Origin: Methylocystis heyeri
Lineage (GTDB): Bacteria > Pseudomonadota > Alphaproteobacteria > Rhizobiales > Beijerinckiaceae
DNA: 64,000 nucleotides
NCBI RefSeq assembly: GCF_004802635.2
Contig: NZ_CP046052.1
Coordinates: 930,001 to 994,000 of the forward strand
Reading direction: 5' to 3'
The position numbers were made by a program, and so were the translations under genes. The notes beneath the pieces are model-generated. The model did not search any database, was not told the origin of the DNA, and saw only the letters and a program-made list of their open reading frames with translations. Below, one piece after another: positions 18,821 to 34,991 of this stretch (its first letter is position 1; every line of letters begins with the position of its first letter).

Positions 18821-19315
18821 ATGGGAAGGCTCATGAAAAGCTTTCGCGATCGCCGCAGGGTAAGCCACGCAGCCGCCGACATGTTCGCCCTTGTCAGCGA
18901 CGTCGAATCCTATCCCAAATTCGTCCCGCTCTGCGAGGGCATTCGGGTGCGTCGCCGCAGCCAGGCGGGTGAGGGGGTCGAGGTCATCGTCGCGGAAATG
19001 CAGGTCGGTTTCAAGGCCATCTGCGAGCGCTACGCCAGCCGCGTGACCTGCAACCGGCCCAAGCTCGAAATCAGCGTCGAATATATCGACGGGCCGTTCA
19101 AGAAGCTCGACAATCGCTGGACCTTCCGGGACGAGCCTTCCGGTCCCAACGGCGAGCCGCGGTCGCTGGTGGAGTTTTACATCGCCTATGAATTCAAGAG
19201 CATGGCGCTCGGCATGCTGATGGGCGCGATGTTCGACAAGGCTTTTCACAAATATTCGGACGCTTTCGTGAAGCGCGCGGACCTCATATACGGACGGTCT
19301 CCAGCAGCATATTGA
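18821..19315 (+). CDS. RatA/Coq10-type START-fold protein
   Basis: The 164-residue protein is of the polyketide-cyclase/START family annotated either as RatA (ribosome association toxin) or Coq10 (ubiquinone-binding). Its signature is RRVSHAAADMFALVSDVESY followed by PKFVPLC, and a KLDNRWTFRDE strand later. In alphaproteobacteria it regularly sits next to lipA and cinA, and the Coq10-like role is the more likely one. The ATG 18821 start lies after AGAGGAGGCGG at a slightly long distance. Its 3' end overlaps the convergent cinA gene by 32 bases. Confidence 0.85.
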   Translation: MGRLMKSFRDRRRVSHAAADMFALVSDVESYPKFVPLCEGIRVRRRSQAGEGVEVIVAEMQVGFKAICERYASRVTCNRPKLEISVEYIDGPFKKLDNRWTFRDEPSGPNGEPRSLVEFYIAYEFKSMALGMLMGAMFDKAFHKYSDAFVKRADLIYGRSPAAY

Positions 19316-19778
19316 GCGCCTGTTTTACCGAGGCCGCTCTGATCTCATGGCGGGACAGAGCGCCGAAGCGCCGCTCGACATGAACGGTCTCCCGGCCGCG
19401 CCGCGCGCAGGCGAAATGGACCAGCCCGACCGGCTTTTGCGCCGTGCCGCCGCCGGGGCCGGCGACGCCGGTGATAGAGGCGGCGAGATCGGCGCGCGAA
19501 TGTTTGAGCGCGCCTTCGGCCATTTCTATCGCGGTCTGGGCGCTCACGGCGCCAAATTGCAGCAGCGTCCGCGCCGCCACGCCCAGCATTTCCTGCTTGG
19601 CCTTGTTGGAATAGGTGACGAAGCCGCGGTCGAAAATGTCGGAAGAGCCGGGAATGTCGGTTATCGCGGCCGCAACCAGGCCGCCGGTGCAGGATTCCGC
19701 CGTCGCTACGACCAGTTTCAGCTCGCGGCATTCGGCGAGCAGGGCGGCGGCGTCGTCGTGGGTTTCGGTTTCGGTCAT
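19284..19778 (-). CDS. CinA-family nicotinamide-nucleotide amidase
   Basis: This 164-residue protein is the stand-alone C-terminal CinA domain (PncC-type), which deamidates NMN in pyridine nucleotide recycling. Motifs are VVATAESCTGGLVAAAITD with the catalytic Ser, the YSNKAKQEMLGV segment and SITGVAGPGGGT. The N-terminal MoaB-like half of full CinA is absent, as is usual in this lineage. I chose ATG 19778 over an upstream GTG at 19796. It converges on and overlaps the ratA-like gene. Upstream of it the Rhs island begins. Confidence 0.9.
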   Translation of the reverse strand: MTETETHDDAAALLAECRELKLVVATAESCTGGLVAAAITDIPGSSDIFDRGFVTYSNKAKQEMLGVAARTLLQFGAVSAQTAIEMAEGALKHSRADLAASITGVAGPGGGTAQKPVGLVHFACARRGRETVHVERRFGALSRHEIRAASVKQALNMLLETVRI

Positions 19779-19811
19779 CGGGGCGGACTCTCGCACAGGC
19801 TGGGCGGGAGT

Positions 19812-20260
19812 CTAACCGATCTTTCGTTGTTTTGAGATGGGGGCGGGGGACGCGTGCGTTCCAGACCCAGGCGCCCTGGTCGAGATCATCAGCACCGGGC
19901 GGCTGAGACGGTCGGTGTGGACCATGTAAACCTGCGGGGTCGAGGTGTTGACCTGATCCACCACCGCGACGGGGAGGTCGTTCAGCCAGATATATTCGCG
20001 ATGCGTGACGCCGGCGCTGTCCAGCTCGGCGATGATGTGATTGTGGATGTCGTGGACGTAGAGCGTCGTCGTCGTGGTCGCGCCGCTGGTGACGGTTCGC
20101 GAGACCAGCCGGTTCAGCGCGTCATAGCCATAGCTGCCGCCATTGCTCGGCGCCCCGGCCCGCGAGGCTTTGGCCAGCCGCCCCTCGACGTCGTAGCTGT
20201 AGTTCATCGCGATATTGGAGCCCGCCGCGCTGCTGTCGCTGGCCACATCGCCGGCGGCGT
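19812..20260 (-). pseudogene. Rhs core remnant (vestigial tip module)
   Basis: Bases 19857-20260 are a near copy of the 3' Rhs core (it encodes NYSYDVEGRLAKASRAG and later YMVHTDRLSRPV). At the 3' side the frame shifts out of the expected TAGAWVWNAIYNPF segment and ends after about 20 unrelated residues. At the 5' side homology stops abruptly within the codons for AAGDVAS. No tip of its own and no companion gene are left between it and cinA. It is best read as the decayed oldest end of the array. Confidence 0.75.
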
Positions 20261-20384
20261 TAAAGGCTATTCTGGCGGCCCTAACTCACCGTAGCTCTCG
20301 AAAACTCCCAGCATCGAGAAAATATTTGCGTTCGCTCGCGTTCACATCAACGGCGCCGCCATCGAATTACTTAGCTGACAGAAT

Positions 20385-20771
20385 CTAGGCGCTGTCATCA
20401 ACACGATATATAGTAACAGCAAGCTCTGCGTTTATTGATGAAAGCACAGAAATGGTTTTATCTGATATTGAGAATACGTATTGCCCTTGTTTTATGCCAG
20501 AACTAATCCCAATATTGAAGCGCCTGATATCGCACGCATCCCATATTTTCCTAGCTTCATCCGAAAGTCCTGATACGACGTCAGTTAACTCGGCTATGGT
20601 TGCGGTGATATCTAGAGCGTTACCGTTGCTTTCAACGGATAAAAACCCGTTGTAGTTCTGTAAAACAATAGCCTTTTCGCGGAACTCGTTCTCCAGTTCG
20701 CGAAAATCGGCTTTGTAATACAGCTCTAAATCAACGTTCAGGAATCTAGTATCGCGGCTATCTGTGATCAT
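20385..20771 (-). CDS. candidate immunity protein for the next Rhs tip
   Basis: This 128-residue protein has no signal peptide or membrane segment. It begins with a beta strand (FLNVDLELYY) and ends with ELAVTIYRVDD, an alpha/beta layout seen in small cognate proteins next to Rhs tips. The ATG follows GAGG at normal spacing and lies only 15 bases after the stop of the cysteine-rich tip at 20787, so the two are cotranscribed. No named family is recognised. The immunity role is inferred from position only. The codons are AT-richer than the Rhs core. Confidence 0.65.
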   Translation of the reverse strand: MITDSRDTRFLNVDLELYYKADFRELENEFREKAIVLQNYNGFLSVESNGNALDITATIAELTDVVSGLSDEARKIWDACDIRRFNIGISSGIKQGQYVFSISDKTISVLSSINAELAVTIYRVDDSA

Positions 20772-20786
20772 GTCAGCCTCTATCCA

Positions 20787-21428
20787 TTAATCGGACGTAA
20801 AATGGCAATGACCTAAGCATCCGCGACACTCTTCCTTGGCATTTTCTCTCGCGTTTTTCTGACACGAGGCCCGATCATTTCCGATGCCTTTATAACGATC
20901 AGGGCAGGTTCCGAGTTCACGTAAAGTTTGGCAGCTTACGCCCCCCGGGCTGTAAATATCTCGGTGTGAACATGAGCAGCTTCCGGTTCGAGACGAAGAC
21001 AGATACAGCTCGTAGCCCACAAAACAAGCTTCGATCCCGGTTTGAACGATCGCGACGTCGCAAAGGGGATTGGCGAGTCCACCGATAACGCACACTCCCA
21101 CCTCTTGGGTGCCGCGCGGATCGACTTTCGCCAGCGGATTCCCGCCGACATAGCCATAGACGCTCGGCCCGTCGCTCATCAGCGCGGTCAGCCCCAGCGG
21201 ATCCGGCTGGATATACCTCCCGAGGCTCGGATCATAATGCCGATGCCAATTGTAGGCGAGGCCGGTTTCGAGCTGGAACCACTGCCCCGGAAAGCGGATG
21301 TCCATCACCGCGGGGCTGGACCAAATATAGCTCACCGCGCCGAAGGGATTGTAGATCGCGTTCCAGACCCAGGCGCCCGCGGTCGAGATCATCAGCACCG
21401 GGCGGCCGAGATGGTCGGTGTGGACCAT
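20787..21428 (-). CDS. orphan Rhs C-terminal module, Cys-rich tip
   Basis: This partial Rhs gene starts inside the conserved core (MVHTDHLGRPVLMIS) and has about 310 bases of core homology (roughly 21110-21431). It lacks a proper start and signal peptide, so it is probably silent unless recombined into the full-length gene. After QPDP the sequence diverges into DGPSVYGYVGGNPLAKVDP and a tip of about 105 residues with around a dozen cysteines, ending ECRGCLGHCHF. The pattern suggests disulfides or metal binding in an exported toxin, but no catalytic motif is recognised. Its companion gene at 20385 follows. Confidence 0.7.
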   Translation of the reverse strand: MVHTDHLGRPVLMISTAGAWVWNAIYNPFGAVSYIWSSPAVMDIRFPGQWFQLETGLAYNWHRHYDPSLGRYIQPDPLGLTALMSDGPSVYGYVGGNPLAKVDPRGTQEVGVCVIGGLANPLCDVAIVQTGIEACFVGYELYLSSSRTGSCSCSHRDIYSPGGVSCQTLRELGTCPDRYKGIGNDRASCQKNARENAKEECRGCLGHCHFTSD

Positions 21429-21435
21429 GTAAATC

Positions 21436-21636
21436 TTAGGCGCCAGTCTCCGCGTGAGCTTTAAGCTTAGGAATTATGTCGTAGTTGAGGTCGGCTATAA
21501 TTTTAGCTGCAAACTCCCCTATGACTTGCCTTACAAATCTATCTTCGCTAACGGAGCCAAGATACATTGGGTATTCTAGGTTTTTTTCAAAGAGCTCAAG
21601 AGCCGAAATGAGCTGCTGCATTTCATCTTTAGACAT
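21436..21636 (-). CDS. small candidate immunity protein
   Basis: I place the start at ATG 21636, which has a GAGGG ribosome site, giving 66 residues; an ATG at 21672 would add 12. The product is a soluble, mostly helical acidic protein (ISALELFEKNLEYPMY, then FVRQVIGEFAAKIIADL). It sits immediately after the tip at 21679 and its 3' end abuts the next core copy at 21431, so core, tip and this gene form one module. The family is unknown and the immunity role is inferred from position. Confidence 0.55.
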   Translation of the reverse strand: MSKDEMQQLISALELFEKNLEYPMYLGSVSEDRFVRQVIGEFAAKIIADLNYDIIPKLKAHAETGA

Positions 21637-21678
21637 TCTGCCCTCACTATTGCCAAACGGTGCCTTGCCCATCAATCA

Positions 21679-23358
21679 TTAAAAATCGTGACAGTCATGT
21701 GCCTGCATACACTCTCTAATACATTTGCGCAAATCTCCAGGACCTCTGATTAACCCTTCCACGAACATATCGCTGCATCCTTGGCGGCAGCCCCGTAGAA
21801 CGGCGTCGCAATTCACGCACTTGCTTATATTGGATGAATTTTTGATGGAGAAGCCGCCGCCACCCACCGCTAATCCACTCGGATCTTTCTTCGCCAGCGG
21901 GTTTTGCGCGCCATAGCCGTAAATGCTCGGGCCGTCAGGATAGTTCGACCGTAGCGGCGAAGTGTCTGCTGTCGCTGGCGCGACAGAGGAAAGGAGCGGC
22001 GCTCCAGCAAGTCGAATGTTTTCATCGGCGGACAGGGCGCCTGGCACCAACAGCAACGGGCTGACACCCGCGATCGTCGGGCCGGTCTTCTCATCCACTC
22101 GCAGCGGATCCGGCTGAATATACCTCCCCAAGCTCGCATCATAATGCCGATGCCAATTGTAGGCGAGGCCGGTTTCGAGCTGGAACCACTGCCCCGGAAA
22201 GCGGATGTCCATCACCGCGGGGCTGGACCAGATATAGCTCACCGCGCCGAAGGGATTGTAGATCGCGTTCCAGACCCAGGCGCCCGCGGTCGAGATCATC
22301 AGCACCGGGCGGCCGAGATGGTCGGTGTGGACCATGTAAACCTGCGGGGTCGCGGTGTTGACCTGATCCACCACCGCCACCGGCAGGTCGTTCAGCCAGA
22401 TATATTCACGATGCGTGACGCCGGCGCTGTCCAGCTCGGCGATGATGTGGTTGTGGGTGTCGTGGACGTAGAGCGTCGTCGTCGTGGTCGCGCCGCTGGT
22501 GACGGTTCGCGAGACCAGCCGGTTCAGCGCGTCATAGCCATAGCTGCCGCCATTGCTCGGCGCCCCGGCCCGAGAGGCTTTGGCCAGCCGCCCCTCGACG
22601 TCGTAGCTGTAGTTCATCGCGATATTGGAGCCCGCCGCGCTGCTGTCGCTGGCCACATCGCCGGCGGCGTCATAGCCGAGGCTGCGCGTGCTGCTCCCTG
22701 TGGCCACCGACTGCAGCCGGTTGGAGCCGAGCGGATAGAGATAGCTCGACAGGACGCCGTTGCCGGTCTCGGTGAGGCGGTTGCCGACGCCGTCGTAGGT
22801 CCAGGAATATTGGCCGTAATAGCCGCTCGCCGAAGCCAGCCGCCGCGTCGGCGTATAGGTGAAGCTCTGCGACTGCGCGCCATAGGTGAAGGGCGGACTC
22901 GTGCCGGGATTGTTGTTGTCGACGATCGAATCCACCATGTCGCCGGTCCAGGACAGGTTGAGATCGACGCTGCCGCTGGGGCTCGCCGACCATCCGGTCT
23001 GCACCCGCTTCACGCGATAGCTGCTGTCGAGCGTGAAATTGGTGGTCTGGCCGTTGTTGAAGCTCATCGAGGCCAGCGGCCCATAGGGGTTCCACTGCGC
23101 CAGCCACAGGATGGCCTGATCCTGCGCGGCGGAGTTCTGCCTTGTCGTGATCGAGCTGATCCTGCCGATGGCGTCGCGTCCAAAGTTGACGGTCCGCCCG
23201 GAGGGATAAGTCATGGAGACGATATTGCCCGCGGCGTCGTAGCTGTAATAGACGGCCACGGAAGGAGCGGGATTGGTGGTGCGATAATCGACCACCACGC
23301 GCCCCTGCGCGTCATATTGCAGCCAGTCGTTGCCGGTTTCGCTGTAGATGGCCGGCAA
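21679..23358 (-). CDS. orphan Rhs module with long core, Cys-rich tip
   Basis: This 559-residue frame is the largest partial copy: about 1.25 kb (22105-23350) is nearly identical to 28453-29700 of the full-length Rhs gene. It contains many YD-type repeats (YSYDAAGNIVSMTYPSG) and the core end AYNWHRHYDASLGRYIQPDP. After QPDP come about 50 novel residues, then DGPSIYGYGAQNPLAKKDPSGL and a tip with eight cysteines (CVNCDAVLRGCRQGC, then CIRECMQAHDC). There is no signal peptide and the frame opens mid-core, so expression as such is doubtful. It is followed by the small gene at 21436. Confidence 0.75.
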   Translation of the reverse strand: MPAIYSETGNDWLQYDAQGRVVVDYRTTNPAPSVAVYYSYDAAGNIVSMTYPSGRTVNFGRDAIGRISSITTRQNSAAQDQAILWLAQWNPYGPLASMSFNNGQTTNFTLDSSYRVKRVQTGWSASPSGSVDLNLSWTGDMVDSIVDNNNPGTSPPFTYGAQSQSFTYTPTRRLASASGYYGQYSWTYDGVGNRLTETGNGVLSSYLYPLGSNRLQSVATGSSTRSLGYDAAGDVASDSSAAGSNIAMNYSYDVEGRLAKASRAGAPSNGGSYGYDALNRLVSRTVTSGATTTTTLYVHDTHNHIIAELDSAGVTHREYIWLNDLPVAVVDQVNTATPQVYMVHTDHLGRPVLMISTAGAWVWNAIYNPFGAVSYIWSSPAVMDIRFPGQWFQLETGLAYNWHRHYDASLGRYIQPDPLRVDEKTGPTIAGVSPLLLVPGALSADENIRLAGAPLLSSVAPATADTSPLRSNYPDGPSIYGYGAQNPLAKKDPSGLAVGGGGFSIKNSSNISKCVNCDAVLRGCRQGCSDMFVEGLIRGPGDLRKCIRECMQAHDCHDF

Positions 23359-23537
23359 TCCAATTAGGTCTCGTCATGGCGCTGCCGGATCGGCTATGCC
23401 CTGCCCGAGGGACCAAACCAATTTTCTTTCCCCACTGCCAAACTATAGTCTCTCCGCTGATCGTGCCAAGGGCAAACAGGAAGTGATGAAGAAAACCTGA
23501 TAACATTATTTTTAGGTACACTACAGCTATCTCACCT

Positions 23538-24011
23538 TTACTGAAGATCACGAAATATCACACTGAATTTTGGAAAATTCTTGACGCGAGACACTTTATA
23601 AAACTCATCGTCGCTCATTGGGCCGTTTACCAACTTTGAAAAATCTACCCCACCCTTACTGTTGTCTCGAGCGCGTAAAATGTACGCTTTTTCAAAATAA
23701 TAGTAGTTAGTTACAAGCCTATTCCCCATGTTTGCGCTGCTTGAATTTATTACATCGACATATGGGTGCTGCATTACTATGAAAACATCTTCGTTTTCGC
23801 CAATAGCAAACACAGTAGGCCCAACAAGCAGCTTAGACTCTTCGTTGTCAGACCCAATAATTAGTTGCATCTGCTCTCTAGAGTCAACATATACAAGAGA
23901 GAAATCCCCATCCGTCCAAGCAACATCACTCATACATCTGTACAATATGATACTACAGAAAGCCAGCATCAAAACTAATGCTGATGCATAATTTATAACA
24001 AGCCGTATCAT
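23538..24011 (-). CDS. candidate immunity protein with N-terminal membrane anchor
   Basis: ATG 24011 overlaps the stop codon of the preceding tip as ATGA, which strongly favours this start over the ORF's upstream ATG at 24041. The 157-residue product has an N-terminal membrane segment (about residues 4-22, VINYASALVLMLAFCSIIL), then an outward domain with DGDFSLVYVDSREQMQLIIG and VFAIGENEDVFIVMQHP. This beta-rich pattern resembles DUF3997-type small lipoproteins, a weak assignment. A membrane-anchored protector would fit a tip acting in the periplasm or membrane. The gene is clearly AT-rich relative to its surroundings. Confidence 0.65.
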   Translation of the reverse strand: MIRLVINYASALVLMLAFCSIILYRCMSDVAWTDGDFSLVYVDSREQMQLIIGSDNEESKLLVGPTVFAIGENEDVFIVMQHPYVDVINSSSANMGNRLVTNYYYFEKAYILRARDNSKGGVDFSKLVNGPMSDDEFYKVSRVKNFPKFSVIFRDLQ

Positions 24012-24580
24012 TGACATCCACATTGTTTTAGCTCGGACCACTCAAAATCCTGAATAATAGTCCTGAACGGCCCCCAAGTAAGAGGGGAGTTAGGAAACAA
24101 ATGCGTCCAAGAGCGAATACCGGATTCATTATGAATTCTGAATGTTATCAAGCCATTGCTATTGTCCGTTATGGTCGCACCGGCCCAACCGCCGACCTCG
24201 GCCGCAGTACTTCCCCAGTCGGCGGTTTTTGGGTTAATCAAAGTGTCCCAAAAAGCTGTCCGAGAATAATAAGCTTCCTGCCTCCAGCGCTCTGGACAAT
24301 GCATTTTGTTGTATGCAATTCGCATTTTAGCTGCCCCGGGCGATTGCATCATTTCTTGGGTTTCTAGGTCATTCTGTCCGTAACGACGCACCCTCTGTCC
24401 GAGACCCGTAACCCAATCTAAGAAGTACAAAATGTTACTCTTGTAAGTTAGGCCTTCCGGATCCTCGTGCGCCAGCGGGTTCCCGCCGACATAGCCATAG
24501 GCGCTCGGGCCGTCGCTGAGCAGCGTCCCGAGCCCCAGCGGATCCGGCTGCACATACCTCCCCAGCGACGCATCGTAATG
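24008..24580 (-). pseudogene. Rhs tip module truncated by IS3 element
   Basis: Only about 110 bases of Rhs core survive (LGRYVQPDP region) before the IS3 element at 24581. The tip begins DGPSAYGYVGGNPLAHEDPEGL and runs about 160 residues. It includes SRTAFWDTLINPKTADWGST, then GWAGATITDNSNGLITFRI, and ends in a CGCQ tail. I have seen this type of tip (TDNGNGT..., W-x-P-R-x-I) at the ends of other Rhs proteins, without assigned activity. The upstream core is missing and does not resume beyond the IS, so the module has lost its recombination arm. Its companion gene at 23538 is intact. Confidence 0.7.
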
Positions 24581-24608
24581 AGCTGCTGCCGGTTTGGTGG
24601 ACAGCTGG

Positions 24609-25475
24609 TTAAGCTAATGCGACCTTCCGCTCGAACTCAACCGGGCTGAGATAGCCGATGGTCGAGTGACGGCGGACGGTGTTGTAGAAGCGCTCGATAT
24701 AATCAAACACATCTGCCCTGGCCTCGTCGCGCGTCCGGTAGATTTTCCTGGCGACGCGCTCGGTTTTCATCGACGAGAAGAACGACTCCATCGCCGCATT
24801 GTCCCAGACGTTGCCGGATCGGCTCATCGAACAGGTGACGCCGTTGTCGGCCATCAGGCGCTGGAAGTGGTCGCTGGTGTATTGGCTGCCCTGGTCGGAG
24901 TGGTGCAGCAAGGCGTCTGGCCTGCCGCGTCGCCAGATCGCCATGATCAGGGCGTCCGCCACCAATTGCGCGGTCATCTCGGCCTTCATGGACCAGCCGA
25001 CAACACGCCGCGAGAACAAGTCGATGACAGCGGCGACATACAGCCAGCCCTCTGCCGTCCAGATGTAGGTGAAGTCGGCGATCCACCTCTGGTTCGGCCG
25101 CTCGGCGACGAACTGGCGGTCCAGAACATTCGGCGCCACGGCGTCGGCGAGCCGCTGACCGCCGTCTTTGGGCAAGCCACGCCGGCGAGGCCGCGCCCGC
25201 AAGGCGTTTTCCTGCATCAAGCGCTCGATCTTATGCAGTCCGCAGCAAAAGCCGTCAGCCAGAACATCCCGCCAGACCCGGCGTGCGCCATAGGTTCTGG
25301 CGCTGGCGACAAAGCTCGCCCGGATGGAGGCCGTCATCTCCTCATCAAGCTTGTCGCGAGCGCTCGGTCCGCGCTTGAGCCAGGCGTGAAAACCCGACCG
25401 GGAGACATCCAGCGCTTTGCAGAGCCACGCCACCGGCCAGATCGAACGGTGCTTTGCGATAAAAGCGAACCTCAT
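24609..25475 (-). CDS. IS3-family transposase OrfB
   Basis: This 288-residue catalytic half has the retroviral-type integrase core. The DDE residues are in RWIADFTYIWT, HHSDQGSQYTS and NAAMESFFSSMKTE, and the C-terminus reads RRHSTIGYLSPVEFER, typical of the IS3 group. Its ATG overlaps the orfA stop (ATGA). A run of six A followed by G on the minus strand (25511-25505) inside orfA is the expected -1 frameshift site for making the OrfAB fusion transposase. The frame is intact. Confidence 0.9.
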   Translation of the reverse strand: MRFAFIAKHRSIWPVAWLCKALDVSRSGFHAWLKRGPSARDKLDEEMTASIRASFVASARTYGARRVWRDVLADGFCCGLHKIERLMQENALRARPRRRGLPKDGGQRLADAVAPNVLDRQFVAERPNQRWIADFTYIWTAEGWLYVAAVIDLFSRRVVGWSMKAEMTAQLVADALIMAIWRRGRPDALLHHSDQGSQYTSDHFQRLMADNGVTCSMSRSGNVWDNAAMESFFSSMKTERVARKIYRTRDEARADVFDYIERFYNTVRRHSTIGYLSPVEFERKVALA

Positions 25476-25762
25476 TTCGCTTCCCTCGCAAAGAAGGCCG
25501 CGGCCTTTTTTAGGATGTCGCGCTCCGCCCGCAGCTTGGTGACTTCGCGCCGCAGGCGCTCGATTTCAAGCTGCTCGGGCTTCATCTGCCCCTGACCAGG
25601 AAAGGCGGCGGCCGGATCAGCCGCCAATTCCTTCACCCAACGCCGCAGCATGTTCTCGTGCAGTTCCAGATCCCGCGCCGCCTGCGCAACGCTTACGCCG
25701 CGCTCGCGCACCAAACGGACCGCTTCGACCTTGAACTCCCGGCTGAACTGACGCCGTTCCAT
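25472..25762 (-). CDS. IS3-family transposase OrfA
   Basis: The 96-residue protein has an N-terminal helix-turn-helix (EFKVEAVRLVRERGVSVAQA, then ARDLELHENMLRRWV) that binds the element ends. A leucine-zipper-like coiled coil follows (LEIERLRREVTKLRAERDILKK). It carries the A6G slippery stretch near its 3' end, where ribosomes would shift into orfB. Length and layout are standard for IS3-group OrfA. Confidence 0.9.
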   Translation of the reverse strand: MERRQFSREFKVEAVRLVRERGVSVAQAARDLELHENMLRRWVKELAADPAAAFPGQGQMKPEQLEIERLRREVTKLRAERDILKKAAAFFAREAK

Positions 25763-25991
25763 GCTCCACCTCCGGTTCCGTAAAACACCTTATCTCGGTG
25801 TCCACCAAACCGGCAGCAGCTCAATCCGCAACATTCAGGCTCAGGCAGCATGACCGCCCCACACTTCCTCATGGTCTCCTGGACAGCTCCCCGCGGATTT
25901 TGAGTGGATCTCTGCCGGGGTTTGCTGAACGCGGGGCGTCCCGATTTTGTCGCGGCGGCGGGAGGGCGTTATATGCGCGTCAACATGATTG

Positions 25992-26594
25992 CTATGCCAA
26001 TATCCTGATGGGAAAATTAGGAGACCTCCATCCGAAAGTCAAAGCAATGCCTAACAATTCAAACAGTAACTTGAGCAACATCAAGAAACCGCAGATGGCC
26101 GCTTGCCATCCCAGCGCCCCACTGAGATAAATCCCGGCAAGATCACGCTTGGCAAAAAGATGGCCTCGTTGGGCCGCAACCTCGAGCAATCGTTTTGCTT
26201 CAATAAAATCCCGCTTCGTTGACAGACCTTCTTTGTACATCATAGCGAGCCTGTAAATTGCAGGCGTGTAATTAGTTGCCGCCCCTCTTGAAAATGCGTC
26301 AAAAGCTGCCTTGTAATCCTTTTCCTGAAAAGCAATCCGCCCAAGCCTGTACGACGCCTGGATCCATCCAGCGTCTTCGGCGCGCGCGAGCCAAAATTGC
26401 GCTTGAGAAATTCCGCTCTTTGAATTTTCTTCCAAATAAGCGTCGGCGAGATACCATATGCTCGCTATTGAACCTCGCTCCGCTAAATCCTTTAGGATTG
26501 CTATCGCTCCAGCTCTGTCTCCTTCCAATCGTGAGTAAGCCTTGCGCAATGCCTCGATGTCGGGCTCTCGCTCCCAATCGATGTCCGGGTACAT
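25992..26594 (-). CDS. Sel1-repeat protein, candidate immunity protein
   Basis: The 200-residue protein is a run of Sel1-like (TPR-related) helical pairs from about residue 30 to 160, for example ASYRLGRIAFQEKDYKAAFD and AIYRLAMMYKEGLSTKRDF. It then ends in a hydrophobic segment (AAICGFLMLLKLLFELLGIA) that could be a membrane anchor. Its AGGAGA ribosome site spans the stop codon of the Rhs tip at 26604, so translation is coupled. Sel1-type proteins are known as cognates of some exported effectors. The immunity role is inferred from the coupling and from the equivalent position in the other modules. Confidence 0.65.
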   Translation of the reverse strand: MYPDIDWEREPDIEALRKAYSRLEGDRAGAIAILKDLAERGSIASIWYLADAYLEENSKSGISQAQFWLARAEDAGWIQASYRLGRIAFQEKDYKAAFDAFSRGAATNYTPAIYRLAMMYKEGLSTKRDFIEAKRLLEVAAQRGHLFAKRDLAGIYLSGALGWQAAICGFLMLLKLLFELLGIALTFGWRSPNFPIRILA

Positions 26595-26603
26595 CGGGCT
26601 CTC

Positions 26604-27521
26604 CTATGGACAGTTCTTTCGCGAGATGGACGGCGGCGGCGGTGGCGGAGCCTTAGGTGGTTCTGGGAACTCCTTCCAGCAGATCAGCGTGTAGCACACT
26701 CGCCAGAATTTGCGCCAATCCCAAAGACCCTCAGGGTCCTCGTATACTAGCGGATTTTGTTCAGCGTAACCGAAGCGAGCCGGCCCGTCCGGAAATAACG
26801 CTCTTTCCGTGTGTCCAGCGGGGTTAATCAGCGGGGCTTGGAGCTGGAATAGCTCGATAACACTCAGATTATCGAAGGGCGCTGCAATAGTAGCAGCGTC
26901 TCGCTTCCACGCAGCGAAAGTATCTGTTGGAATGCCGGCAACGGTCACACGCTCCTTGTCCTTTATCAGCGGATCCGGCTGCAGATACCTACCGAGGCTG
27001 GCGTCGTAGTGCCGATGCCAGTTGTAGGCGAGGCCGGTTTCGAGCTGGAACCACTGCCCCGGAAAGCGGATGTCCATCACCGCGGGGCTGGACCAGATAT
27101 AGCTCACCGCGCCGAAGGGATTGTAGATCGCGTTCCAGACCCAGGCGCCCGCGGTCGAGATCATCAGCACCGGGCGGCCGAGATGGTCGGTGTGGACCAT
27201 GTAAATCTGCGGGGTCGCGGTGTTGACCTGATCCACCACCGCGACGGGGAGGTCGTTCAGCCAGATATATTCGCGATGCGTGACGCCGGCAGTGTCCAGC
27301 TCTGCGATGATGTGGTTGTGGGTGTCGTGGACATAGAGCGTCGTCGTCGTGGTCGCGCCGCTGGTGACGGTTCGCGAGACCAGCCGGTTCAGCGCGTCAT
27401 AGCCATAGCTGCCGCCATTGCTCGGCGCCCCGGCCCGAGAGGCTTTGGCCAGCCGCCCCTCGACGTCGTAGCTGTAGTTCATCGCGATATTGGAGCCCGC
27501 CGCGCTGCTGTCGCTGGCCAC
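26604..27521 (-). CDS. orphan Rhs module with short Pro-rich tip
   Basis: The frame opens at a GTG within the core and core homology extends to 27564, where it abuts the stop codon of the next companion gene. It encodes NYSYDVEGRLAK through AYNWHRHYDASLGRYLQPDP, identical in most positions to the full-length gene. Beyond QPDP lie about 60 novel residues, then DGPARFGYAEQNPLVYEDPEGL and a tip of only about 40 residues with two Cys, a proline run (PPKAPPPPPPS) and SRKNCP at the end. The tip may be a remnant or a very small toxin. The Sel1 gene follows at once. Confidence 0.7.
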   Translation of the reverse strand: MASDSSAAGSNIAMNYSYDVEGRLAKASRAGAPSNGGSYGYDALNRLVSRTVTSGATTTTTLYVHDTHNHIIAELDTAGVTHREYIWLNDLPVAVVDQVNTATPQIYMVHTDHLGRPVLMISTAGAWVWNAIYNPFGAVSYIWSSPAVMDIRFPGQWFQLETGLAYNWHRHYDASLGRYLQPDPLIKDKERVTVAGIPTDTFAAWKRDAATIAAPFDNLSVIELFQLQAPLINPAGHTERALFPDGPARFGYAEQNPLVYEDPEGLWDWRKFWRVCYTLICWKEFPEPPKAPPPPPPSISRKNCP

Positions 27522-27563
27522 ATCGCCGGCGGCGTCATAGCCGAGGCTGCGCGTGCTGCTCCC

Positions 27564-28028
27564 TTATCCCTCTTCCTTTCGGCCCCGCGCCTCGCGCCGT
27601 CGGGTCAGCTCGTCCTCGATTTTCTGAACCTCCGCGTCGACCATTCCGCGCAGCCGTTGGTAAACGTCCAGTCCATAGACCCAAGGAATGTACTTCGGAA
27701 AAATTACATAAGCAGCATCCGGATATTCCTCAGTCGTCACGAACGGTTCAGTCTGTTTTTCAAAAAAGACCCTGAACCGCGTCAGCGCCTCGATTATCGC
27801 TTGGAACGGAGAGGTTCCATAGTTGCGCCTACGTTCAGCTTTCTCGTTTACGGCAATCTCGCTCAGGCAATACCAGTCGCCGGTCTCACTATCGGGAACG
27901 GGCGCCGCCAACCGCACGGTTATCCGCTTACCTGTTTCCTCTCCAACGAACGCCATCTCGCACATTGGGGCGAAGATTTCATCGACCATGCCAGTCTCCC
28001 GATCAGTGGTCACCGTATTGGTTTTCAC
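27564..28028 (-). CDS. candidate immunity protein of the full-length Rhs (DUF6968-like)
   Basis: This 154-residue soluble protein starts at GTG 28028, overlapping the Rhs coding end by 26 bases in another frame, which implies coupled translation. Features include MCEMAFVGEETGKRITVRLA, GDWYCLSEIAV and YGTSPFQAIIEALTRFRVFF. This resembles DUF6968-type small proteins that sit beside toxins, a match from memory. The C-terminus is a charged helix. Its stop codon touches the next copy of the Rhs core, so the pair tip plus this gene behaves as one exchangeable cassette. Confidence 0.7.
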   Translation of the reverse strand: MKTNTVTTDRETGMVDEIFAPMCEMAFVGEETGKRITVRLAAPVPDSETGDWYCLSEIAVNEKAERRRNYGTSPFQAIIEALTRFRVFFEKQTEPFVTTEEYPDAAYVIFPKYIPWVYGLDVYQRLRGMVDAEVQKIEDELTRRREARGRKEEG

Positions 28029-31000
28029 ACCAGTTCCGCTTTTCCTGAACCGAGTTAAAAGTATGACTTAAACAGGCCATGTGTGCTTGTTGCCCCCCAA
28101 CAACATTGTTTCGCTCTTTCTTTGATATTGTGTCACAAAAAGCAACCCAATCATCTTCCCCGCCTTCCGCGGCCCTCAAACATTTTTGATAACGATCATC
28201 CCGCGTTTCACGTTTCCGACTGCAGAATTGATTGGACACCCAATCCAGGACACCCCAACTCACGCCCGCTCCGGCTAGGCCGCCTGCGGCTGCGCCGATA
28301 ATCGTTCCGGCGCCTGGCAAAATCGCAGTGCCGATGTCGGCGCCAATTTCTCCACCGATCAGGATAGGCGAGGGGTTGCGGCCATCGGGATCCCCATATG
28401 CCAGCGGATTCCCGCCGACATAGCCGTAAAGACTCCGCCCGCCGGCATACCCGATCGGATCGGGCTGCAGATACCTCCCGAGGCTCGCATCATAGTGCCG
28501 ATGCCAATTATAGGCGAGGCCGGTTTCGAGCTGGAACCACTGCCCCGGAAAGCGGATGTCCATCACCGCGGGGCTGGACCAGATATAGCTCACCGCGCCG
28601 AAGGGATTGTAGATCGCGTTCCAGACCCAGGCGCCCGCGGTCGAGATCATCAGCACCGGGCGGCCGAGATGGTCGGTGTGGACCATGTAAACCTGCGGGG
28701 TCGAGGTGTTGACCTGATCCACCACCGCCACCGGCAGGTCGTTCAGCCAGATATATTCGCGATGTGTGACGCCGGCGCTGTCCAGCTCGGCGATGATGTG
28801 GTTGTGGGTGTCGTGGACGTAGAGCGTCGTCGTCGTGGTCGCGCCGCTGGTGACGGTTCGCGAGACCAGCCGGTTCAGCGCGTCATAGCCATAGCTGCCG
28901 CCATTGCTCGGCGCCCCGGCCCGAGAGGCTTTGGCCAGCCGCCCCTCGACGTCGTAGCTGTAGTTCATCGCGATATTGGAGCCCGCCGCGCTGCTGTCGC
29001 TGGCCACATCGCCGGCGGCGTCATAGCCGAGGCTGCGCGTGCTGCTCCCTGTGGCCACCGACTGCAGCCGGTTGGAGCCGAGCGGATAGAGATAGCTCGA
29101 CAGGACGCCGTTGCCGGTCTCGGTGAGGCGGTTGCCGACGCCGTCGTAGGTCCAGGAATATTGGCCGTAATAGCCGCTCGCCGAAGCCAGCCGCCGCGTC
29201 GGCGTATAGGTGAAGCTCTGCGACTGCGCGCCATAGGTGAAGGGCGGACTCGTGCCGGGATTGTTGTTGTCGACGATCGAATCCACCATGTCGCCGGTCC
29301 AGGACAGGTTGAGATCGACGCTGCCGCTGGGGCTCGCCGACCATCCGGTCTGCACCCGCTTCACGCGATAGCTGCTGTCGAGCGTGAAATTGGTGGTCTG
29401 GCCGTTGTTGAAGCTCATCGAGGCCAGCGGCCCATAGGGGTTCCACTGCGCCAGCCACAGGATGGCCTGATCCTGCGCGGCGGAGTTCTGCCTTGTCGTG
29501 ATCGAGCTGATCCTGCCGATGGCGTCGCGTCCAAAGTTGACGGTCCGCCCGGAGGGATAAGTCATGGAGACGATATTGCCCGCGGCGTCGTAGCTGTAAT
29601 AGACGGCCACTGAGGGAGCGGGACTGGTGGTGCGATAATCGACCGTCACCCTGCCTTGGGCGTCATAGACCAGCCAGTCATTGCCGGTTTCGCTGTAGAG
29701 GCCGACCAGCCGGCCCGCGCCCTTGTTGCCGTCGCCGGTGTAATCCCAGGCGAAGCCCTGCCCATATTGCGAGGCCGGATAGCCGTTGTAGCTCTTGTAG
29801 CTGATACGGCCCGCGGCGTCGTAGGAATAATTGGTCACGATCCCGCGCGGATCGGTCCTCTGCGTTACACGGCCGCCCGCGTCGCGCACATAGGTCGTGG
29901 CGCCGCGGTCGGGCGAGACCTCCTGGATCACCTCGCCGAAGCCGTTGCGGACATAGCTGGTCACATTGGCGCGCGGATCCTGATAGCCGGTGATGTTGTC
30001 CTGGCCGTCGCGCGCGAGATTGACCGTCGCGCCGCTCTCGTCGACCTCCTTGTTCAGGCGGTTGAGCGCGTCGAACCCATAGGAGAACACATTCGAGCGC
30101 GGGTCCGCGACCGAGACGAGGTTGTCGGTTCGATCATAGGCGAAACCATAGGCCTGCGATTGCGCTCCGATAGACTTGATGACCCGCCCGAGTTCGTCGA
30201 AAACCCTGGTCTCGGCAAAGCCGGCGCCGACGCCTCCCGATACGCTGGTCGAAGTTGTGTCGCCATTGGCGTTGCGGGCGTAGCTGATGGTTTCTCCGGC
30301 CGAATTCGCGACGCTCATCAGCCGGCGGGCGCCGTCATAGGAATAGGTCTCGTAAGCGCCGTTGGGCAGGGTGATCTTTGTGACGTCTCCCACCGCGTCA
30401 TAGGCGATCGTGGTGATCGCGGGAGTTCCCGCGGCGTCGGCCGTCAGACTTGTCAGCCATCCATGGGTCTGCTCGTAAGCGAGATTGACCACGACGCCAT
30501 TGGGGTCGGTCAGCGACGTGGGCTGGCGAAGCGAATTCCATGAGGTGACGGTCGTGACGTTCCCGACCGGATCGGTGACCGACTGCAGGCCGCCATTGGC
30601 GTTGTAGGCGTAAGCGGTCACCGCGCCCGCGGGATCGGTGACCGAGGTCAATTGCCCGGTGGAGTTATAGACATAGCTCCAGGTTCTGGTCTGCCCGCTG
30701 GTGGAATAGGGAACGCTTTGCGTCGTGGTGTCGAGTTGCTGGATCTGCGTGACAAGCCCGCCGGCGTTGTAGGTAGCCGAGATCGTCTGCCCTGGAACCG
30801 CGATCTGCGTCGGCAGGTTCAAAGTTGCATGCCAGGCGACATTGGTCGTGACGGCTTGCGAGGTCCCATAACCACGCGTGATCGAAGTCGGGCGGTTTTT
30901 CGCGTCGCGCACATAGGCGATGACGCGACCTTCCTCGTCTGTCTCCGAAGCGACGAAATAATTGGAGTCATAGGTCCAGCCGCGCGTCGTGCCGACGCAA

Positions 31001-32589
31001 TTCGTGCTTGGTTCGCCGACCACCGACGTCAAGGTCGAGAGGTAGGAATTGCTCGGATGGGTCCAGTGATATTCCGCCACCTTGCCGAGCGGATTGGTGA
31101 CGTAGCGCACCAAATCATTGGGCAGCGTGGTCGAGGGCTGGTTATAGGCGATGGAATAATTATCCAGGCCGCCGGCATGCTGGGTCGAGGTCGCGCGCCC
31201 CAGTCCGTCATAGGCGAAGGTTCCGTATCTGACGCCGCGAGCGTCGGTCACTCCGGTCAGGAAAGTCGGAAACAGTGCGTTTTCATATTGGTAGGTGGTG
31301 TAATCCAGCACACTGCCGCCAGCGATGAGCTGCTTTTGCACGAGGCGGCCGACGTTCATGACCGAAGCGCCCGACTGCAGCGGCGGATCGTAGGTATAAA
31401 CAAGCGATGTGCCGTTGGAAGGGGTGATGCTAGCGATGCTTACCGGCACGGGGTTCGTATTGCCGACGCTCGTGTCCGGATATTGGAAATAGTTCCAGGC
31501 GACGGCAAGCGACATTCCATAGCTATCTGTTATGCTTTGGAGCGCGCCATATTGATCGTAAGAGAAGTTCCAGACATATTGACCTTCGCTCATCGAAATC
31601 GGACGAGCAATCAGGTAAAGCGGCGCTCCGTTGCTGTCACTGGAATTGATTTGCCGAAAGGTCTGAAAGGTCCAGACCCTGTTCTCGTCGGCGTCGATCA
31701 GCCGCCATTGCGTCGGGGTGTATGTTATCTGTGTCCAATCGCTGGGGGGCGTTCCAACAAATTGGAGACTGTAGCGCGTCTGGATCGTGCCCGATGGAAC
31801 AAAGCTGTTGCCGCTTTGAGCAAAATCGAGAGCAAGCCCATTCGGCAGATATAGAGTTACGCCCGTCTTCAGGTAAATATATTGCGCGAATGACGTATCG
31901 CTCGCGAGATGAATTTCAGACAGGAAGTTGAACCGCCAGCCGCCCACTGAGCCTCGAACTTCGCCTTTGCGCGCGATCACCGCAGACGGCGCACGGCTGC
32001 GATAAAACCGACTGACGTAAAGTCGTCCCTTGTCGCCGGCGGTCTCGAAATCGGTTTCCTCTTCGAGCTTGGCGCCGTCGAAGATGGCGATGGGATTGCC
32101 GGCGTTGGGGGAGTTGAGCGGGGGGTTGGGCGCCGAACCTATTCCAGGTCCTGAGGTGGATTTGGAAGACGAGCAGCCAGGAGGCAGAGGCGGGGTGATC
32201 TGCTCGTTTGGGGAACAGTTTCCGCCGACCGCGGTATAGCCGGCTGAACAGGTTAGCCATACGATGGTTGGCCCGATCGTGCCGCAACTGTTGATGCCGC
32301 CATTGCAGCGATCATAGAACTTGGTCCAGTCGCATTGGTAGGTATTGGGGTTGCTGGTGGGCACCGCGGCGACAAAAACGCTCTTGGCGGTGGCGTTGTA
32401 GGCCTGCCACTGATGTTGACAGGCGTCCGCGGGCGTTGCCCCATAATATCCCGGTTGTTGGTTCATGACGGTGAACCAACCCTGGCTTCCCTGCGGAAAA
32501 GATTGCGCCTCGGCGTCCCTTTGCGCCACGCCGAAGAGAATGGCCACCATGCACAACGCACGGACGGCGAAATGAGCAACCCGGTTCAT
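28003..32589 (-). CDS. full-length secreted Rhs/YD-repeat protein (polymorphic toxin candidate)
   Basis: The 1528-residue protein has a Sec signal peptide (residues 1-28, cleavage near AEAQ) and a Cys-containing N-terminal region of about 125 residues. A DUF6531-like start follows (GNPIAIFDGAKLEEETDF, then FYRSRAP), and then about 1,000 residues of YD/RHS repeats that in relatives form a hollow shell around the toxin. The core ends RYLQPDP. The variable tip of about 130 residues has a Gly-rich hydrophobic stretch (GAGTIIGAAAGGLAGAG) and then six Cys before NQYGDH. Start ATG 32589 has GGAG upstream. No VgrG, PAAR or type VI genes are present, so Sec-dependent surface display or release is the likely route. 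Confidence 0.85.
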   Translation of the reverse strand: MNRVAHFAVRALCMVAILFGVAQRDAEAQSFPQGSQGWFTVMNQQPGYYGATPADACQHQWQAYNATAKSVFVAAVPTSNPNTYQCDWTKFYDRCNGGINSCGTIGPTIVWLTCSAGYTAVGGNCSPNEQITPPLPPGCSSSKSTSGPGIGSAPNPPLNSPNAGNPIAIFDGAKLEEETDFETAGDKGRLYVSRFYRSRAPSAVIARKGEVRGSVGGWRFNFLSEIHLASDTSFAQYIYLKTGVTLYLPNGLALDFAQSGNSFVPSGTIQTRYSLQFVGTPPSDWTQITYTPTQWRLIDADENRVWTFQTFRQINSSDSNGAPLYLIARPISMSEGQYVWNFSYDQYGALQSITDSYGMSLAVAWNYFQYPDTSVGNTNPVPVSIASITPSNGTSLVYTYDPPLQSGASVMNVGRLVQKQLIAGGSVLDYTTYQYENALFPTFLTGVTDARGVRYGTFAYDGLGRATSTQHAGGLDNYSIAYNQPSTTLPNDLVRYVTNPLGKVAEYHWTHPSNSYLSTLTSVVGEPSTNCVGTTRGWTYDSNYFVASETDEEGRVIAYVRDAKNRPTSITRGYGTSQAVTTNVAWHATLNLPTQIAVPGQTISATYNAGGLVTQIQQLDTTTQSVPYSTSGQTRTWSYVYNSTGQLTSVTDPAGAVTAYAYNANGGLQSVTDPVGNVTTVTSWNSLRQPTSLTDPNGVVVNLAYEQTHGWLTSLTADAAGTPAITTIAYDAVGDVTKITLPNGAYETYSYDGARRLMSVANSAGETISYARNANGDTTSTSVSGGVGAGFAETRVFDELGRVIKSIGAQSQAYGFAYDRTDNLVSVADPRSNVFSYGFDALNRLNKEVDESGATVNLARDGQDNITGYQDPRANVTSYVRNGFGEVIQEVSPDRGATTYVRDAGGRVTQRTDPRGIVTNYSYDAAGRISYKSYNGYPASQYGQGFAWDYTGDGNKGAGRLVGLYSETGNDWLVYDAQGRVTVDYRTTSPAPSVAVYYSYDAAGNIVSMTYPSGRTVNFGRDAIGRISSITTRQNSAAQDQAILWLAQWNPYGPLASMSFNNGQTTNFTLDSSYRVKRVQTGWSASPSGSVDLNLSWTGDMVDSIVDNNNPGTSPPFTYGAQSQSFTYTPTRRLASASGYYGQYSWTYDGVGNRLTETGNGVLSSYLYPLGSNRLQSVATGSSTRSLGYDAAGDVASDSSAAGSNIAMNYSYDVEGRLAKASRAGAPSNGGSYGYDALNRLVSRTVTSGATTTTTLYVHDTHNHIIAELDSAGVTHREYIWLNDLPVAVVDQVNTSTPQVYMVHTDHLGRPVLMISTAGAWVWNAIYNPFGAVSYIWSSPAVMDIRFPGQWFQLETGLAYNWHRHYDASLGRYLQPDPIGYAGGRSLYGYVGGNPLAYGDPDGRNPSPILIGGEIGADIGTAILPGAGTIIGAAAGGLAGAGVSWGVLDWVSNQFCSRKRETRDDRYQKCLRAAEGGEDDWVAFCDTISKKERNNVVGGQQAHMACLSHTFNSVQEKRNWCENQYGDH
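28453..29700 (-). repeat. Rhs core segment duplicated along the island
   Basis: This 1.25-kb part of the full-length gene is the template for all partial copies. The copies, with approximate limits, are 22105-23350, 26970-27564, 21110-21431, 19857-20260 and a 110-base stub at 24470-24580. Copies end abruptly at different upstream points but all diverge downstream right after the codons for QPDP. Near-identity at nucleotide level implies recent duplication or ongoing gene conversion. Confidence 0.85.
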
Positions 32590-32839: not shown

Positions 32840-34036
32840 CTACCCCGGCAGTCTCACCGTCGCAATGGCGAGCGCCGCCATGCCTTCCTGGCGGCCGGTG
32901 AAGCCGAGCTTCTCTGAGGTCGTCGCCTTGATGGCCACGCGGTCGATATCGAGATCCATGATGGCGGCGAGGCTGGCGCGGATCGCGTCGCGATGCGGGC
33001 CGATTTTCGGCAGCTCGCAAACGATGGTGGCGTCGATATGGGCGATCATGCCGCCGCGCTCGCGCACGCGCTCGCAGGCGCGTTTCAGAAAGATCGAGGA
33101 GGCGGCGCCTTTCCACTGCGGATCGGAAGGCGGAAAATGCGAGCCGATGTCGCCGTCGGCTATGGCGCCGAAAATGGCGTCGGTGATGGCGTGCATCAGC
33201 ACGTCGGCGTCGGAATGTCCGGCGAGCCCATGGCTGTGGGGAATAGCGACGCCGCCGAGCCAGACTTTTTCGCCCTCGGCGAAGGCGTGAACGTCATAAC
33301 CCTGGCCGGTGCGCACATCGGGCAGGGCGTTCAGCAACAGGGCCGTGGCGCGCAAGAAATCCTCCCGGGTCGTCAGCTTGAAATTGGCGGGGTCGCCTTC
33401 AAAGATATGGACGGCATGGCCGGCGTGCTCGGCTATCATGGCGTCGTCGGTGAATTCCAGCGCCTTCGACGCCGCCGTCCGGTGGGCCTGCAGGATCAGA
33501 TCGAAGGCGAAGGACTGGGGCGTCTGCACGGCGCGCAGGCGCGCGCGCTCCGGCGTCGCCGTCACCTTTCCTGCGGCGTCCACCTCCTTGACCGTATCGG
33601 CGAGAGCGACGCCCGGCGCCGCCGCCCCGTGATCCAGCGCGGCGTCGATCGCCCTGGCGATCAGAGCCGCATCGGCGAAGGGGCGGGCGGCGTCGTGGAT
33701 CAGCACGACTTTGGGCGGCTTCTCCAGCGACGCCAGCGCCTCGAGGCCGTTGCGCACGCTGTCCTGCCGCGAGGCGCCGCCGGTCGAAGGCGCCAGCAGC
33801 CGCTCGCGCGCGTCCGCCGGGAGTTCCTGCGCCGCGGCGTCGTAAAGTTCGCGGTCGTCGGCGTGGATCACGGTCGCCAGCACCGCCTGCGGCGCGGCGG
33901 CGTGCAGCGCCTTCAGCGTATGGGCGAGCACGCTGCGGCCGAGGAGCGGGCGATATTGTTTGGGGAGGCCTTCGCCGGCGCGCGAGCCGCGTCCGCCGGC
34001 GACGACGAGAAAGGCGATTGAAGAGGTCGCGGTCAT
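32840..34036 (-). CDS. ispDF: bifunctional IspD/IspF
   Basis: This fused enzyme covers two steps of the MEP isoprenoid pathway. The N-terminal IspD cytidylyltransferase (residues 1 to about 235; VVAGGRGSRAGEGLPKQYRP nucleotide loop) makes CDP-methylerythritol. The C-terminal IspF domain (RTGQGYDVHAF with metal ligands Asp and His, then GLAGHSDADVLMHAITDAIF) cyclises its phosphorylated form. Total 398 residues, the usual length of the alphaproteobacterial fusion. Relatives keep it beside cinA and dusB-ntrB; here it is flanked by the Rhs island on one side and the secreted-paralog array on the other. Confidence 0.95.
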   Translation of the reverse strand: MTATSSIAFLVVAGGRGSRAGEGLPKQYRPLLGRSVLAHTLKALHAAAPQAVLATVIHADDRELYDAAAQELPADARERLLAPSTGGASRQDSVRNGLEALASLEKPPKVVLIHDAARPFADAALIARAIDAALDHGAAAPGVALADTVKEVDAAGKVTATPERARLRAVQTPQSFAFDLILQAHRTAASKALEFTDDAMIAEHAGHAVHIFEGDPANFKLTTREDFLRATALLLNALPDVRTGQGYDVHAFAEGEKVWLGGVAIPHSHGLAGHSDADVLMHAITDAIFGAIADGDIGSHFPPSDPQWKGAASSIFLKRACERVRERGGMIAHIDATIVCELPKIGPHRDAIRASLAAIMDLDIDRVAIKATTSEKLGFTGRQEGMAALAIATVRLPG

Positions 34037-34774: not shown

Positions 34775-34991
34775 CGAAACCTCCAACCGTTTGCGGTGGC
34801 TCCTCTCGAATATGCTGGCTGGCGAGGCCATCGGCAAGTTGGGGGGGGCTGATGAAAACTGCGGCATTTTCGCCTTTGCGATAGAGATCTGTGACTCCCT
34901 TTGGTCCTTCGAGGAGGCGTCGCTCGATCCCGCCAGCTTGTCGACAGAAGAGAAAGCCCTTCATGCCGAGAGGCGGCGATGCAGGCGTCAG

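Follow-up and report, generated by a model that had tools for sequence, protein, structure and literature searches.

A full-length Sec-type Rhs gene followed by an array of orphan tip and small-gene cassettes in Methylocystis heyeri

We analysed a 64,000-nucleotide stretch of Methylocystis heyeri (contig NZ_CP046052.1 of assembly GCF_004802635.2; C1:930001–994000 of a 4.73-Mb genome in three contigs), hereafter the window, in whose positions all features are given. Between cinA and ispDF it carries an island, with all parts on the minus strand, made up of a full-length Sec-type Rhs gene of 1528 aa, four 3′ fragments, each with an unrelated tip and a small gene, and one tipless remnant (Table 1). 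This island is very probably a polymorphic-toxin locus for a Sec-exported Rhs protein with an archive of displaced tips, i.e. an orphan toxin/immunity array. The complete gene would make an exported Rhs cage bearing the current tip, and the overlapping gene would make the immunity protein for that tip. The downstream fragments, each a core piece with a tip and an immunity gene, would be earlier or alternative 3′ ends, displaced as homologous recombination through the core brought in a new tip. Having no export signals, they would be silent as toxins, and their small genes may still confer immunity; a full-length copy with another tip, located on a plasmid, would be the exchange partner. An earlier note on the window had described one complete secreted Rhs protein with five partial 3′ copies, four of them with different tips past the QPDP codons and small genes of their own and the fifth a tipless remnant, as a displaced-tip array of the known Rhs kind. 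Layout and core identities agree with that description, the Sec-type N-terminus being judged by eye here; the plasmid gene and its exchange tract could not be seen from the stretch available to that note.

The Rhs island and its plasmid counterpart

The open reading frame (ORF) at 28003–32589 encodes, in this order, a Sec-type leader, a cysteine-containing N-terminal domain, DUF6531, RHS repeats, the Rhs-associated core and the tip. Pfam recognised 12 RHS-repeat stretches (PF05593, E value 2e-56), PF03527 (RHS) and PF20148 (DUF6531), and NCBIfam the Rhs_assc_core family (TIGR03696, 1.4e-20). By eye, the N-terminus has typical n, h and c regions, and many relatives look similar. The TEN_YD-shell model PF25023.1 was not listed for the full protein in our Pfam scan and reached 12–13 bits in two fragments (cut-off 50), and the accession PF25023.2 is present in the Pfam annotations precomputed for proteins of the window.

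Comparison with the full gene (blastn) identified core copies of 595 bp (copy 2, 97.1% identity), 1250 bp (copy 4, 98.0%) and 239 bp (copy 5, 96.7%), and a remnant of 406 bp (97.3%) with no tip. Only 42 bp of core, at 81% identity, were found for copy 3, which adjoins an IS3-family element. These repeats are not due to chance: they are long, 97–98% identical and arranged in the same layout in related genomes. The chromosomal gene, the plasmid gene and the fragments begin to diverge at the QPDP codons (codon end 28456). The G+C content is 61–66% in the cores, 51–56% in the tips and 39–56% in the small genes, and no leader is seen by eye on any fragment (ORF list). The earlier suggestion that tips could be swapped through the near-identical cores holds for copies 2, 4 and 5, i.e. 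three of the four orphans, which are able to recombine, but not for copy 3, a poor substrate for homologous switching because almost no core is left.

A second full-length gene (1565 aa), with another tip and small gene, is located on plasmid C3 (30.6 kb), which encodes RepB and RP-C replication proteins and is of the repABC type. Compared base by base, the chromosomal and plasmid genes show zero differences over ~3.0 kb, from ~31524 to 28513. The flanks do differ, at 58 positions in the 5′ part, counted from 32800 onwards, and at five in the last ~60 nt of the core. If the rate of differences were uniform, a gap of this size would have a probability of ~1e-19. Over the final 150 nt of the core, the plasmid copy differs from copy 2 at 2 positions and from the main gene at 5. 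We read this pattern as a recombination or conversion tract between the two replicons, apparently recent, ending just short of the tip boundary.

Two Tn3-type transposases flank the plasmid gene, and we looked for an intact Tn3 transposon around it; none of the 10 inverted-repeat pairs (at least 24 nt, 70–81% complementary) was recognisable by eye as transposon ends, and transposition of the gene as a unit is therefore not claimed. The plasmid tip (L009, ~9150–9240) shares an HHW...VPDWIKNQPWN block with a Bradyrhizobium locus (L050, 3.9e-41) and has, by eye, the look of a His-based nuclease; it matched no toxin family in Pfam or NCBIfam.

Other methanotroph plasmids carry relatives of the full-length gene: the protein is 53% identical over 90% of its length in Methylocystis parvus OBBP, 52.5% over 89% in Methylosinus trichosporium OB3b and 47% over 76% in M. 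iwaonis. In genome G007, whose plasmid match fits M. parvus OBBP (NZ_CP092969.1), the tip and immunity type of the full-length plasmid gene recurs in an orphan on the chromosome (tip 1.8e-61, immunity 2.2e-46).

The boundaries of the island are visible in the relative with the most similar ispDF (G014, 86%): its ispDF match ends at 190523 and its cinA match, which contains one stop within the frame, starts at 190537. The junction that carries a 13 kb Rhs array in M. heyeri thus measures 14 bp in that relative. In G007, the ispDF–cinA pair is 4.4 kb apart and the Rhs matches are located elsewhere. The island is therefore most simply explained as an insertion at the ispDF/cinA site.

Table 1. 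Features of the Rhs island and its flanks (window positions)
Feature	Position	Strand	Remarks
Full-length Sec-type Rhs gene	28003..32589	-	1528 aa; core to QPDP ends at 28456; ORF list, Pfam, NCBIfam
Mature N-terminal Cys-containing domain	32092..32508	-	precedes DUF6531; 7 Cys
Difference-free tract	28513..31524	-	~3.0 kb, zero differences vs plasmid copy, divergence at both sides
Tip 1 (main)	28003..28455	-	5 Cys
Putative immunity 1	27564..28028	-	154 aa; DUF6968 (PF22302)
Copy 2 core fragment	26970..27564	-
Tip 2	26604..26969	-	40 aa past linker; hydrophobic Trp/Cys stretch, then proline run; 3 Cys
Putative immunity 2	25992..26594	-	200 aa; Sel1 repeat; hydrophobic C-terminus (by eye)
IS3-family insertion element	24579..25823	-	25-bp inverted repeats, transposase domains
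Tip 3	24008..24538	-	core cut down to ~42 bp adjoining the insertion element
Putative immunity 3	23538..24041	-	167 aa; one N-terminal hydrophobic segment (by eye)
Copy 4 core fragment	22105..23354	-
Tip 4	21679..22104	-	twin-CX3C family; 7 Cys
Putative immunity 4	21436..21675	-	79 aa
Copy 5 core fragment	21198..21436	-
Tip 5	20787..21197	-	11 Cys
Putative immunity 5	20385..20771	-	128 aa
Core remnant	19856..20260	-	no tip
ispDF	32840..34036	-	upstream flank; named from reading of the protein
cinA-like gene	19284..19796	-	downstream flank; named from reading of the protein

Upstream of ispDF, three adjoining small exported-looking proteins with related sequences are encoded on the minus strand (34214–36267, by eye). 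The host genome also contains a second core-fragment array with a tip and neighbour (L015, G000:C1:3660499–3664807), in which a copy-4-type immunity gene stands without such a tip (L015:6473–6679), and more distant Rhs core fragments (C1:2889572–2890081, 4298609–4298782 and 4300388–4300495). Two further proteins are a 1614-aa YD-repeat protein with TEN_YD-shell above the cut-off, possibly teneurin-like (L010:1255–6099, C1 ~65 kb), and a 2610-aa SpvB/TcdB-type protein, Tc B/C-like by Pfam (L073:392–8224, C1 ~3.62 Mb).

Tip and small-gene pairs across genomes

At genus level, the last 202 aa of the core matched 5 of 39 genomes; the figures were 20 of 397 for the family (E 1e-20), 15 of 397 for the order (1e-30) and 6 of 385 for the class (1e-20), the host genome being included each time. 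The loci retrieved, 54 locus-strands in all, yielded 97 tip-bearing copies; 18 of the 54 carry at least two copies, a proportion that is no prevalence, because some loci were chosen for fetching on several matches. The same architecture was found in G100 (a full gene and seven copies, with cassettes of a decayed look) and G725 (a full gene and four copies). Orphan tip types also occur on full-length genes elsewhere, as with the tip-4 family on L048 (a 1478-aa frame) and the M. parvus orphan and plasmid gene.

Tips and small genes are associated across genomes. Among the 86 of 97 cassettes usable for a pairing test (a tip of at least 15 aa and an adjoining small ORF; similarity at E 1e-3; pairs from different genomes), 9 of 40 tip-similar pairs also had similar small proteins, against a mean of 0.22 after shuffling, and none of 10000 shuffles was as high.

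In the window, the main tip and each of the four orphan tips are followed by an ORF on the same strand, overlapping or at most 18 bp off, encoding 154, 200, 167, 79 and 128 aa, respectively. Each orphan tip and each small gene is an uninterrupted reading frame. Immunity 1 belongs to DUF6968 and immunity 2 has Sel1 repeats; the other three small proteins had no family above the cut-off. As the earlier note had it, several tips are Cys-rich (tips 1, 2, 4 and 5 have 5, 3, 7 and 11 Cys, respectively) and none has a recognised catalytic domain (Pfam and NCBIfam for all tips; PDB sequences for tips 1, 3 and 5 and the tip-4 family), and a known enzyme was rejected within that scope. A PADLOC search with the full gene and six small proteins gave a single weak match, of immunity 5 to a methyltransferase model (E 0.0041), not taken as meaningful. 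Tip 1 (28006–28380) resembles the cone-snail peptide con-ikot-ikot at a weak, near-chance level (E 0.0094), which we judge to be probably a coincidence of cysteine pattern. Tip 2 has a relative in a similar short tip in G100 (1.4e-7), and loci L058 and L047 carry short tips built like it, not listed as similar, beside Sel1-type proteins; the match of immunity 2 to the Sel1-type neighbour of L058 (2.9e-9) was discounted, as Sel1 repeats are widespread and the respective tips are not listed as alike. Since its 40 aa are too few for an enzyme and the C-terminus of its neighbour is hydrophobic, we infer that tip 2 may act on membranes.

Tip 4 belongs to a family with the pattern CX3C-Xn-CX3C and was recognised by the family profile from which it had been left out (E 4e-6). 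This twin-CX3C pattern occurs in 8 of the 97 tips, as opposed to 0.85 in shuffled sequences, and the eight tips are mutually related. In the tip family, leaving out one member at a time, six of eight gave E < 0.001, L031 0.022 and L054 6.1. The tip-4 profile had ten non-redundant matches among 22101 ORFs, all with a downstream small gene matched by the immunity profile. When the immunity-4 profile was subjected to the same procedure, eight of ten members were significant (2e-5 or better). The status of immunity 4 as a proven family member was dropped: its membership, like that of its counterpart in G064, is by position, because the left-out E values are 20 and 4.6. A significantly related small gene accompanies eight of the ten tip matches, six by leave-one-out and two (L079, L121) outside the profile. 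The best match of the copy-4 immunity profile to a designed repeat protein (E 3.8e-7, a designed-helix match) was judged to be a composition effect.

This profile identified copy-4-type immunity genes at 32 places in 28 of the 397 family genomes. Twelve of these loci were looked at, 11 of which had enough upstream sequence: three had an intact tip, one a remnant and seven none within the stretch. One of the three intact tips is not on an Rhs protein: L120:3–1460 encodes a phage-portal-domain protein (PF04860, 5.2e-18) ending in a twin-CX3C tip, and the small gene behind it is of the copy-4 immunity type (E 1.9e-14). The tip-4 profile itself did not list this portal-protein tip.

An odd number of cysteines in the tips

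Cysteine makes up 4.0% of the tips and 1.6% of the adjoining small proteins, and the tips tend to have an odd number of cysteines. The count was odd in 80 of 91 tips of the first set, in which the rule was noticed, and in 17 of 22 further tips serving as a test set (p 0.008; 16 of 21 if the duplicate L101/L105 is merged). Combined as run, 97 of 113 tips are odd, i.e. 97 of the 108 with at least one cysteine, whereas chance composition would give 56 of 113. The controls also differ: the count is odd in 41 of the 91 small proteins beside the tips and in 4 of 25 tips from other Rhs types of the order (Fisher test, 6.7e-10 and 2.7e-11, respectively), so chance composition, a property shared with neighbouring proteins and a general trait of Rhs proteins were rejected as causes. 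Five control loci (L124–L128) come from very long ORFs (2558–2612 aa), one of them Tc-type by Pfam, and the control is 3 of 20 without them. Trimming is not the cause, as the uncut tips of the first set are still odd in 80 of 91 cases, and neither is relatedness (57 odd-majority and 6 even-majority clusters, with two ties).

Tips of fewer than 15 aa were left out of both sets before counting. The second set also excludes ORFs that run off the end of a contig and tips already covered by an earlier one. Copy 3 of the window, with 3 Cys by eye, stands outside the counts, its core being too short. Three of the five non-odd tips in the test set were counted without cysteine, and the other two, with 4 and 2 Cys, sit on distant cores; odd tips occur on such cores as well. 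One of the three Cys-free tips, L089, had been cut too far and has one cysteine when taken from the core end (L138, the same place), and the uncut G007chrA.0 has 7 rather than 6; the counts were left as run. The tip is odd in 20 of 21 full-length genes, the exception, G102, looking frame-shifted by eye.

The parity extends to the rest of the protein. Eighteen full-length proteins were aligned (G102, G725 and G341 of the 21 were left out). Of these, 16 have a conserved cage cysteine (residue 531 in the 1528-aa protein), and all 16 have an odd count in the N-terminal domain; in the two that lack it, the count is even. Adding the cage to the N-terminal domain gives an even sum in 16 of the 18 proteins but not in L048 and G100, with an extra cysteine beside an ambiguous residue. 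The tip therefore normally leaves one cysteine unpaired in the chain. The minimum seen in twin-CX3C tips is four paired cysteines with one ahead of them (L054, L079), and the portal-protein tip has no more than four cysteines in its last 70 residues. The extra cysteine might thus belong to the Rhs carrier rather than to the toxin, a suggestion made with low confidence from these sequences.

The odd-cysteine rule is a strong and simple regularity. As a tentative and rather doubtful idea, the last cysteine of the N-terminal domain, the conserved cage cysteine and a lone tip cysteine between linker and toxin might form a redox latch, in which two pair and the third stays free; thiol–disulfide exchange could then retain the tip inside the exported cage and release it in the target. 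The counts would be odd because each new tip has to contribute one extra cysteine and no more; the portal-protein tip would be without it. Rhs and an odd number of cysteines were not found together among the matches listed in the open-licence literature (subscription journals lie outside this scope).

Alternative readings and known systems

Several results weigh against the reading of the island as a toxin locus with an archive of displaced tips. The nine matched pairs include no cassette of the window, and immunity 4 went unrecognised by its own family profile once left out of it. A word-based search of 5.8 billion proteins with tips 1, 4 and 5, of a kind that misses distant relatives, matched tips 1 and 4 only to themselves and tip 5 to one relative. 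The earlier note had named the independent occurrence of the small genes in other genomes as a possible objection, and this applies in part: the copy-4-type gene stands without a tip at 7 of 11 testable loci, which is usual for orphan immunity genes. The plasmid and chromosomal cassettes of M. parvus are 69% identical at the DNA level over 786 bp, so that this exchange is old and a recent swap is not documented. Export, toxicity, neutralisation, silence of the orphans and the direction of displacement are all predictions from sequence, and delivery by a type VI secretion system (T6SS) may still operate in this strain.

The alternative that survives best, though improbable, is that the fragments are decayed debris, pseudogene leftovers of a tandem duplication with no continuing role as a reservoir or in immunity. 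The tipless remnant, the nearly coreless copy 3 beside an insertion element, the absence (by eye) of leaders on the fragments and the decayed-looking G100 cassettes are in keeping with this, but four orphan tips and five small genes are all open, tandem duplication alone does not explain unrelated tips on near-identical cores, and the tip–immunity association is kept across genomes. Slightly less probable again is that the tips are adhesins, ligands or anti-eukaryotic factors and the small genes their chaperones. The tips are small, Cys-rich and without recognised enzymes, and tip 1 has its near-chance likeness to con-ikot-ikot; however, swappable tips with their own small genes, together with solo small genes, are traits of polymorphic antibacterial toxins, and a twin-CX3C tip occurs on a phage portal protein beside a copy-4-type small gene.

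PAAR-Rhs effectors of the T6SS also combine an RHS cage with a variable tip, but have a PAAR domain and depend on a T6SS. That the N-terminal hydrophobic segment of our protein is no Sec signal and that cytoplasmic toxin tips are loaded on the T6SS of this genome is very unlikely: a T6SS cluster is indeed present (L071, C1 ~3.81 Mb; TssC, ImpA_N, Hcp, gp25-like, TssF and TssG), but the full-length protein has no PAAR among Pfam families at E up to 1, no TssC was found in 14 of the 20 Rhs carriers that we picked among the core-match genomes (some are incomplete drafts), and the Cys-rich N-terminal domain and tips fit an oxidising compartment. The statement in the earlier note that type VI genes are missing is right locally, none being seen beside the island, but not for the genome, whose cluster lies 2.9 Mb away. 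Dependence of this Rhs clade on a T6SS seems unlikely, given the 14 carriers in which TssC was not found. From the N-terminus we infer Sec export, and delivery to the periplasm and cell surface by this route, rather than by a T6SS, is likely.

The earlier note took this set of tips with a Sec signal to be undescribed. This was not upheld: C-terminal displacement, orphan tip/immunity modules and Sec-dependent RHS toxins are all in print (PMC2935791, PMC3150448, PMC3967940, PMC3482391). Jackson et al. (2009; PMC2935791) described Rhs C-terminal displacement arrays in Enterobacteriaceae in which, as here, a full rhs gene precedes a series of core fragments that differ in length and carry dissimilar tips, the tips have a lower G+C content than the core, and variability arises through the insertion of new tips. 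They saw little sign that donors reside within the genome itself and put forward an episomal reservoir, whereas here a plasmid carries a second full-length gene that ends in a different tip, and a tract of recombination is visible; unlike those arrays, moreover, the M. heyeri locus has a Sec-type N-terminus and tips that diverge directly past QPDP. The orphan rhs-CT/rhsI modules of Dickeya and Salmonella (Poole et al. 2011, PMC3150448; Koskiniemi et al. 2014, PMC3967940) likewise mostly lack initiation or export signals and can be joined to the main gene when stretches of a few hundred nearly identical bases recombine (in Salmonella, 522 bp at 95%). In those enterobacterial systems, the evidence for toxicity, immunity and, in Salmonella, switching is experimental, whereas ours comes from comparison of sequences.

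The Sec-dependent RHS polymorphic toxins of Zhang et al. (2012; PMC3482391) have a signal peptide, RHS repeats, a variable toxin, an immunity gene and solo cassettes, which our locus resembles in its RHS repeats, variable tips, putative immunity genes, orphan cassettes and, by eye, its Sec-type N-terminus; the odd-cysteine rule and the N-terminal/cage cysteine pattern seen here were not met in the portions of that paper considered. Bacterial teneurin-like proteins (PMC13018210) have an exported YD-shell, a polymorphic C-terminal toxin, an immunity gene and no known delivery machine, a plan like the one predicted here; those of Gram-negative bacteria are predicted to have SPII (signal peptidase II) leaders, and the main text does not use the word "orphan". 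Papers in the open-licence literature naming both Rhs and Methylocystis deal, by their titles and the starts of their abstracts, with other matters.

Arrays of this kind have thus been known for Rhs since 2009–2014, and what is new is the plasmid partner with its exchange tract, the cross-genome pairing, the twin-CX3C family and the odd-cysteine rule. Since plasmid and chromosome share an Rhs gene with different tips and a 3-kb difference-free tract, the question of the donor is now testable in a methanotroph genus. The holding and release of teneurin-like toxins is called unresolved in PMC13018210, and the odd-cysteine rule bears on the retention and release of Rhs-like toxins outside the T6SS.

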